A stretch of DNA of 64,000 nt, from assembly GCA_002319075.1 (NCBI GenBank), contig NVQB01000001.1, positions 1,736,001 to 1,800,000 on the forward strand. The letters are read 5' to 3'. Below, in pieces: positions 22,204-39,434 of the stretch. The number at the start of each line of letters is the position of its first letter. Position 1 is the stretch's first letter. A program made the position numbers and the translations under genes. Under the pieces are notes generated by a model that saw nothing but the letters and a program-made list of their open reading frames with translations, searched no databases and was not told the DNA's origin. The DNA comes from Sphingobacteriaceae bacterium. GTDB lineage: Bacteria > Bacteroidota > Bacteroidia > B-17B0 > Aurantibacillaceae.

Positions 22204-22545
22204 TTACTTTCCTAAAACTTCTTTTCGAAAATGTGTCCCCCAGGTTAATACCTCATCTAACATCTTTTTCATAGAGCGTCCAAGTGGTGTAAGAGAATAT
22301 TCTACGGTTACAGGCATACTGTCGTAAAGCGTTCGCGTAATAATTTTATTTTCTTCTAAGGCTTTCAGTTCTTGTGAGAGCATCTTGGGCGAAATATCAA
22401 CGATATCCCTCTGAAGTTCCCCAAAACGTTTATTACCGAAAGTAAGCGCCAGAACAATTGGCAGTCGCCATTTACCTTGTATTACTTCTAATGCATCTCT
22501 CGAAATCATTAATTTCTGCTGACACATAGTTTCTTTCTGATTCAT
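22204..22545 (-). CDS. HxlR-family winged-helix transcriptional regulator
   Basis: 113 residues in the HxlR pattern: IQGKWRLPIVLALTFGNKRFGEL, DISPKMLSQELKALEENKII, then VEYSLTPLGRSMKKML. The N-terminal Cys8 (ETMCQQKL) is where several HxlR regulators such as HypR and YodB sense quinones or oxidants. It is divergent from the YceI gene, with a phased array of half-sites between them that is the likely operator. The membrane-protein gene at 21838 follows closely. Confidence 0.92.
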   Translation of the reverse strand: MNQKETMCQQKLMISRDALEVIQGKWRLPIVLALTFGNKRFGELQRDIVDISPKMLSQELKALEENKIITRTLYDSMPVTVEYSLTPLGRSMKKMLDEVLTWGTHFRKEVLGK

Positions 22546-22564: not shown

Positions 22565-22614
22565 TTACCCCGAGGTAACTACTTACCAATAGGTAACTAC
22601 TATACTTTAGGTAG
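22565..22614. promoter_or_regulatory. Phased TTACC/GGTAA half-site array between hxlR-like and yceI-like genes
   Basis: TTACC at 22565, GGTAA at 22574, TTACC at 22583 and GGTAA at 22592 start exactly 9 bp apart with 4-bp spacers. Weaker copies continue in phase (TATAC at 22601, GGTAG at 22610). It starts 20 bases from the HxlR start codon and ends 11 bases before the yceI -7 box, so it covers both promoters. An ACTAC (22596-22600) / GTAGT (22611-22615) inverted repeat overlaps it. Confidence 0.75.
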
Positions 22615-22624
22615 TAAAGTTAAG

Positions 22625-22632
22625 TAATTTTG
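22625..22632 (+). promoter_or_regulatory. -7 box of the YceI gene
   Basis: TAATTTTG matches TAnnTTTG and lies 24 bases before the ATG at 22657. The region where a -33 element should be is occupied by the half-site array, consistent with repression by the HxlR protein. Confidence 0.5.
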
Positions 22633-22656: not shown

Positions 22657-23217
22657 ATGGCAACTAAAACAACCTGGGTTATTGACCCAACACATTCTGA
22701 AGTCTTTTTTAAGATCAAACACCTTGTTATATCTACCGTAACCGGCGCGTTCAAAAAATTTGATGGTAAGGCTGTTACGCAAGAAGATGGATTTAACAAC
22801 GCTAAAGTGTATTTTACAATGGACGTTAAAAGCATAGATACCAATCAGGCTCAACGTGATGCTCATCTGCAGGACGGCGACTTTTTTATGGCCGATCAGT
22901 ATCCGCAAATCATTTTTGAGTCGACATCCTTTTCAAAACTAAGCGGCAGCGATTATAAAATGGTTGGAAACTTAACCTTGAGAGGAGTTACCAGATCTGT
23001 TGAATTACATGTAGAATATGGAGGCTCTGAAAAAGACGGCCAGGGCAATTTAAAACATGGCTTTGAAGTTACCGGTACTATTAACCGAAAAGAATTTGGT
23101 ATGACCTGGAATAAAATCACCGACACTGGTGGACTCGGCTTAGGTGAGGATATAAAACTTAGTGCAAATATTCAGGTTGGAAAATTAGTGGAAGAGTCAG
23201 CAGAACTAAAAGCTTAA
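22657..23217 (+). CDS. YceI-family lipid-binding protein
   Basis: 186 residues: WVIDPTHSEVFFKIKHLVIS at the start, then VTGAFKKFDGK, GDFFMADQYPQIIFEST and VGNLTLRGVTRSVEL, all YceI hallmarks. The family forms a lipocalin-like barrel that binds polyisoprenoids or fatty acids. No signal peptide is present, so this copy appears cytoplasmic. It is probably controlled by the divergent HxlR regulator, an arrangement common in Bacteroidota for YceI genes induced by oxidant or quinone stress. Confidence 0.92.
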   Translation: MATKTTWVIDPTHSEVFFKIKHLVISTVTGAFKKFDGKAVTQEDGFNNAKVYFTMDVKSIDTNQAQRDAHLQDGDFFMADQYPQIIFESTSFSKLSGSDYKMVGNLTLRGVTRSVELHVEYGGSEKDGQGNLKHGFEVTGTINRKEFGMTWNKITDTGGLGLGEDIKLSANIQVGKLVEESAELKA

Positions 23218-39396: not shown

Positions 39397-39434
39397 AGAA
39401 AACCCCTTCTCCATTGAAAAGGGGTTTTCTTTTT
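39397..39434. terminator. Bidirectional terminator between the ATPase gene and ribH
   Basis: AGAAAACCCCTT (39397-39408) pairs perfectly with AAGGGGTTTTCT (39419-39430) across a 10-nt loop. T runs follow on the plus strand and A runs precede, so both converging genes can end here. Confidence 0.88.

Follow-up and report, generated by a model that had tools for sequence, protein, structure and literature searches.

Two copies of the palindrome TTACC-N4-GGTAA, with their centres 18 bp apart, lie between a gene encoding an HxlR-family regulator and the divergent gene yceI in the 64,000-nucleotide stretch of DNA that was analysed (the window). This array is conserved among relatives, is attached to hxlR and not to yceI, and follows an 18-bp family rule. 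Judged by its sequence, the array very probably serves the adjacent HxlR gene as its operator. As an HxlR operator it is ordinary, and what is unusual is the letter-independent 18-bp pitch across the family.

We propose a mechanism, with a probability of about 0.7 for the whole of it, in which two winged-helix dimers of HxlR (MarR/DUF24-type) would occupy both palindromes, and a third dimer would probably be recruited to a weaker stretch beside them, which covers the predicted start of hxlR as well as the opposite -33 region. Neighbouring dimers would touch and bind cooperatively. In the resting state hxlR itself, and most likely yceI too, would be repressed, until an electrophile or oxidant reacted with Cys8 and released the dimers.

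The array between hxlR and yceI

The half-sites TTACC, GGTAA, TTACC and GGTAA start at 22565, 22574, 22583 and 22592, alternating in 9-bp steps over 22565-22596, with the letters and positions that an earlier note on this DNA had given. They form two 5-4-5 palindromes near the regulator gene, at least 19 bp from the hxlR start codon (Table 1). The earlier note had set this ladder against known HxlR operators of one or two palindromes. A palindrome repeated at 18 bp necessarily puts a second palindrome halfway, giving a ladder of half-sites that alternate every 9 bp; the ladder and the pair of identical palindromes are thus one and the same, and the contrast dissolves.

Given the base composition, chance would produce an exact ladder of four half-sites, whatever the 5-mer, about 4e-6 times in the gap and 0.003 times in 64 kb. 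When up to two mismatches were allowed, the whole window contained a single further ladder-like place, at 39398 and with different letters; this stretch (39398-39429, one mismatch, GAAAACCCCTTCTCC...AAGGGGTTTTC) resembles a terminator hairpin. With both strands of the 5.65-Mb genome read, the pattern TTACC-N4-GGTAA-N3..5-TTACC occurs once, here, and site 2 is the genome's best single match to TANTTACCNNNNGGTAANTA. With up to two mismatches, TANTTACCNNNNGGTAANTA was found at 46 places in the whole genome against 45 for the reversed control, which is no enrichment, so that no wider regulon of the window's HxlR is visible elsewhere in the genome. Two of the 46 places, C1:3163444 and C1:4547888, precede HxlR paralogs. 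A 20-bp site-like sequence stands four times within 13 kb in the same or nearly the same form (C1:189203, 192627, 196097 and 202143), and is probably part of a repeated gene or unit.

The HxlR-like winged helix domain is present in the regulator, and the solved relatives YtcD, HxlR, YodB and QsrR are among 15 PDB sequences. Its Cys8 is conserved in 63 of the 65 aligned sequences and would be equivalent to Cys11 of HxlR; the phmmer match begins at residue 11. Cys8 has the position of an N-terminal reactive cysteine, and its reactivity is predicted. YodB and CatR sense through such a cysteine, as described in the available parts of PMC8063818 and PMC6798810. The formaldehyde-type Cys-x-Lys pair is absent from the window protein, which reads Cys8-Gln9-Gln10, and Tyr is the most frequent residue at position 10 (24/65). 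The genome holds 12 HxlR matches, one of which (C1:3402859-3403113) has an internal stop and is likely a pseudogene.

Table 1. Features of the hxlR-yceI region, in window coordinates.
Feature	Position	Strand	Details
hxlR-family regulator gene, 113 aa, with Cys8	22204-22545	-	Pfam PF01638, 94.9 bits (cut-off 20.8)
hxlR-yceI gap			111 bp
Strong dimer site 1 (predicted)	22565-22578	.	TTACC-CCGA-GGTAA; ortholog-alignment columns 18-31 conserved, 59 regions
Strong dimer site 2 (predicted)	22583-22596	.	TTACC-AATA-GGTAA; ortholog-alignment columns 0-13 conserved
Weak third stretch, probably a third dimer site, across the predicted start of hxlR	22600-22614	.	Minus-strand letters CTACCTAAAGTATAG
Predicted hxlR -7 element	22615-22622	-	TAACTTTA; TAnnTTT[GA] in the same column 43/59, strict TAnnTTTG 25/59
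Predicted yceI -7 element	22625-22632	+	TAATTTTG; TAnnTTT[GA] in this column 45/59, within 3 bp 47/59
yceI, divergent neighbour, likely target	22657-23217	+	Pfam PF04264 (YceI domain), 159.8 bits (cut-off 23.7)

Conservation with hxlR and its varying neighbours

An HxlR protein scan of 84,980 species' genomes gave 65 loci, picked by protein and not by DNA. One of them, without upstream DNA, was dropped from all counts, leaving 64 relatives and, with the window, 65 regions. Each region was scored for matches at 20 fixed positions of the ladder, with a threshold of at least 16. The array was present at this threshold in 58/64 relatives (59/65 including the window), counts that are non-independent events as the upstream regions share descent. 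None of 6,500 dinucleotide shuffles reached 16/20, the best of them scoring 15; the comparison with shuffled sequence that the earlier note had proposed therefore bears out the 9-bp phase. Protein identity in the array-bearing loci ranged from 41 to 91%. Mean information was 1.37 bits in the array columns, compared with 0.35 in the adjoining downstream columns 36-55 and 0.59 farther upstream, in columns -60 to -41. Six of the 65 regions (L042, L078, L095, L096, L097 and L103) are without the array, although L042 and L078 retain one palindrome of the TTACC-N4-RGTAA type. No true ortholog was found within the window's GTDB family (87 genomes, the order-level set being the same 87), where the best other match had 50% identity.

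The likeness of the two 18-bp units in the window would also fit chance, or the recent duplication in tandem of a single 18-bp palindrome, with a spacing that has no function. This explanation is scarcely credible, given that the array is kept in relatives and that paralogs too have the 18-bp repeat, in other letters (below).

The opposite gene varies. In an ORF-based count yceI was the nearest opposite gene in 25/65 loci, whilst tblastn placed it in 27 loci, as the second gene in two. In Flavobacterium pectinovorum (L050, 601-1135) tblastn splits yceI into three pieces and the ORF has 118 aa, so that the gene may be broken. The remaining opposite genes took their labels from Pfam, run on 20 representatives, and from blastp transfer, giving isochorismatase (10), DoxX (10), FMN reductase (5), abhydrolase (4), pirin (2), DsbA (2), DUF6069 (1), NmrA (1) and five unassigned among the 65 loci. 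Opposite the 58 ladder-bearing loci were YceI (24), isochorismatase (9), DoxX (8), FMN reductase (5), abhydrolase (4), pirin (2), DsbA (2), DUF6069 (1), NmrA (1) and two unassigned genes, so every labelled class occurs with the array. We conclude that the array travels with hxlR. A yceI-specific element was ruled out, and the tie to yceI in the original description of the array is not essential to it. The same type of regulator and operator, decoupled from yceI, faces nine or more kinds of gene, many of them for redox or detoxification enzymes.

The 18-bp repeat and the register of the palindromes

As paralogs we took 60 further HxlR genes of the same family, whose proteins are 38 to 51% identical to that of the window, in groups of 20, 26 and 14. 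For each upstream region we determined the distances at which a 14-bp segment repeats at 11 or more positions, with expectations taken from shuffles. Among the orthologs, with the divergent L095, L096, L097 and L103 excluded beforehand, a repeat at 18 bp was found in 43/61 regions against 0.9 expected; among the paralogs it was found in 13/20, 12/26 and 2/14 (27/60 in total) against 0.3, 0.4 and 0.2 expected. Other distances reached at most 6/61 in orthologs and 3/20 or 3/26 in paralogs, and none of 181 control regions, upstream of other genes at the same loci, repeated at 18 bp. The half-site letters vary between paralogs (TTACC, TTTCC, TATCC, CTTCC and others). A 36-bp mirror dyad above the 99% shuffle level was present in 16/60 paralogs and 9/65 orthologs compared with 3/181 controls; these tests, like those of the 18-bp repeat, were run on related sequences and their counts are non-independent.

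The 9/18-bp phase kept in relatives and the 18-bp repeat in diverged upstream regions uphold the earlier suggestion that the array is a likely HxlR operator. The recurrence of the repeat in diverged HxlR genes, with differing half-site letters in several, is new here: no description of 18-bp arrays in HxlR operators was recognised by title or abstract in the literature searched, which included few subscription papers.

The outside set comprised 20 plasmid-borne HxlR regions of 874 matching records, for four of which the start or the opposite gene was unannotated and the stretch was guessed, together with E. coli ytfH; 19 of the 21 regions are non-Bacteroidota. In this small set no region repeated at 18 bp at 11 or more of 14 positions (0/21; 0/19 non-Bacteroidota), compared with 14/40 distant paralogs (Fisher's exact test p = 0.0024), and a universal 18-bp rule for HxlR is therefore unsupported. 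The two Bacteroidota plasmids fell below the threshold with 10 and 8 of 14, Spirosoma nonetheless having a mirror dyad. In that Spirosoma oryzicola plasmid (L182) the gap between a pirin-like gene and the HxlR gene holds a perfect 36-bp palindrome (18/18 pairs), with 25/27 pairs over 54 bp.

Which of the two interleaved palindromes is read bears on the earlier idea that dimers bind in overlapping registers, a reading in which they would use GGTAA-N4-TTACC as well and slide or spread along the array. In the conserved regions the strong half-sites, at columns 0, 9, 18 and 27, match at a mean of 4.93, 4.44, 4.86 and 4.39 of 5, whilst the next half-sites outward fall to 1.81 and 2.29 of 5 in one direction and to 1.07 in the other. 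Exactly four strong half-sites make two full TTACC-N4-GGTAA sites, and the other register would leave two orphans. With strict, equal patterns, regions that keep a single register favour TTACC-N4-GGTAA by 21 to 2 (10 against 1 among the 60 paralogs, 11 against 1 among the 65 orthologs; binomial p = 6.6e-5, which assumes independence and so is optimistic), and a looser equal pattern gave 18 against 5. The dimer site is thus likely to be TTACC-N4-GGTAA, a prediction that agrees in geometry with the published HxlR-DNA crystal oligo.

Overlapping registers would have in their favour that GGTAA-N4-TTACC is palindromic here, and that the 36-bp mirror palindromes of several paralogs and of Spirosoma are centred on it. 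However, two dimers placed face to face would also yield mirror symmetry, and with the half-site count, the single-register regions and the crystal geometry all pointing to TTACC-N4-GGTAA, we regard such binding as quite improbable. In some paralogs the mirror palindromes leave the GGTAA-N4-TTACC register a role, as the axis about which two dimers are arranged symmetrically.

That the spacing stays at 18 bp despite changing half-site letters suggests dimers that touch and cooperate, and we interpret the repeats as side-by-side packing of dimers, possibly in contact. A wider proposal, which we offer tentatively and with more doubt than confidence, is that Bacteroidota HxlR regulators act not as lone dimers but as contact-coupled rows of two to four units, assembled on the DNA at an 18-bp pitch and either head-to-tail or mirror-paired. 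If this were true, the pitch of the operator would be conserved as a trait of the protein family even as the half-site letters changed, and rows of dimers would serve many different detoxification genes as sharp, cooperative switches. Abundant as they are, most HxlR regulators are uncharacterised; the 18-bp pitch gives a letter-independent rule for locating their operators and targets in Bacteroidota, and its conservation makes it testable whether small HxlR dimers act as cooperative rows.

Predicted promoters and comparison with known systems

Predicted -7 elements were placed for both genes by their likeness to TAnnTTTG, which we take to be the Bacteroidota -7 consensus. On the yceI side the strict form was found within 3 bp in 40/59 array regions; no -33 element could be placed convincingly for either promoter. 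If these predictions are right, the strong sites would be part of the hxlR leader and would occupy about -42 to -73 relative to the yceI start, and the third stretch would span the hxlR start as well as -24 to -38 of yceI, its -33 region.

In this third stretch the earlier note had read two weaker copies in phase with the array. The second, GGTAG at 22610, matches 4/5 of GGTAA, but TATAC at 22601 matches only 2/5 of TTACC. Across the 59 array regions the stretch is conserved, though in the form CT.TC ... ATAG with its right arm 1 bp out of phase: it starts with CT in 54/59, has ATAG in 40/59 and both CTAT and ATAG in 15/59, and matches the half-site poorly (mean 2.3 and 1.8 of 5). The accompanying suggestion that binding spreads over both promoters is unsupported in that form: relative to the predicted elements, the two strong sites are downstream of the hxlR start and upstream of the yceI promoter core, and overlap with both promoters is confined to the weak third stretch.

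Being downstream of the predicted hxlR start, the array could alternatively act as RNA, forming tandem hairpins in the hxlR 5' leader, and TTACC-N4-GGTAA would allow a hairpin of five pairs. This is very improbable, and was rejected on its C-A mismatches: the innermost pair is C-A, without wobble, in 18/59 and 21/59 sequences. In paralogs such as L118, moreover, a -7-like box (read by eye and uncounted) lies between array and start codon, which would put the array outside the leader.

The positions of the sites relative to the predicted promoters led us to favour repression of both genes, with activation of yceI as the main rival. In that rival the operator is the same, and HxlR, bound at the two upstream strong sites, would activate yceI while repressing only its own gene. 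The strong sites precede the predicted -7 element of yceI and follow that of hxlR, and their distance from the predicted yceI start could also accommodate an activator. Two known DUF24 regulators activate their targets, among them B. subtilis HxlR, a positive regulator of hxlAB according to the available part of PMC7835342. Against this, the conserved weak third stretch lies across the opposite promoter's -33 region, both YodB and CatR are described as repressors (PMC6212828 and PMC6798810, in the parts available), and the Cys-x-Lys pair behind HxlR activation is replaced by Cys8-Gln-Gln. We consider activation of yceI unlikely, and repression of hxlR and probably yceI remains our preferred reading.

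Among known systems, the polymeric operators of Fur likewise consist of alternating half-sites that are bound by several dimers; these dimers overlap on one site, and both the protein family and the spacing differ from those of the array described here. The E. coli ytfH-qorB gap resembles the window in having two GTAA exactly 18 bp apart, adjoining TTAC and GTAC half-sites, but its centres are about 17.5 bp apart, its spacers are different, and with 9/14 it fails the 18-bp test. E. coli ytfH (L117, 1575-1609) and the HxlR gene of a Rahnella plasmid (L189) have a common half-site layout, with centres about 17.5 bp apart.

The thiol repressors YodB and CatR of B. subtilis and QsrR of S. aureus (MarR/DUF24) are like the window's regulator in being winged-helix dimers with short palindromes and an N-terminal sensing cysteine. 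They are unlike it in that a single palindrome is described for azoR1, 18-bp arrays not being seen in the available part of that literature; the YodB palindrome is TACT-N7-AGTA (PMC8063818, available part).

Closer to the founding member of the family, the hxlA-hxlR gap of a Priestia flexa plasmid (L183) contains two motif copies, as the window does, but 22 bp apart and alike in 14/14 letters. No such repeat was found in the hxlA-hxlR gap of P. megaterium. The founding branch of the HxlR family therefore includes a different pitch, the 22 bp of the Priestia flexa repeat. Tandem sites presumably also precede hxlAB in B. subtilis. HxlR of B. subtilis differs from the window's regulator in activating and in its Cys-x-Lys sensor, where the window has Cys8-Gln-Gln. 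It belongs to the same Pfam family, and its co-crystal oligo, GTATCC-TCGA-GGATAC in the available part of PMC7835342 (7BZG, CAGTATCCTCGAGGATACTG), has the same 5-4-5 palindrome with CC on the inside as the two strong sites described here.
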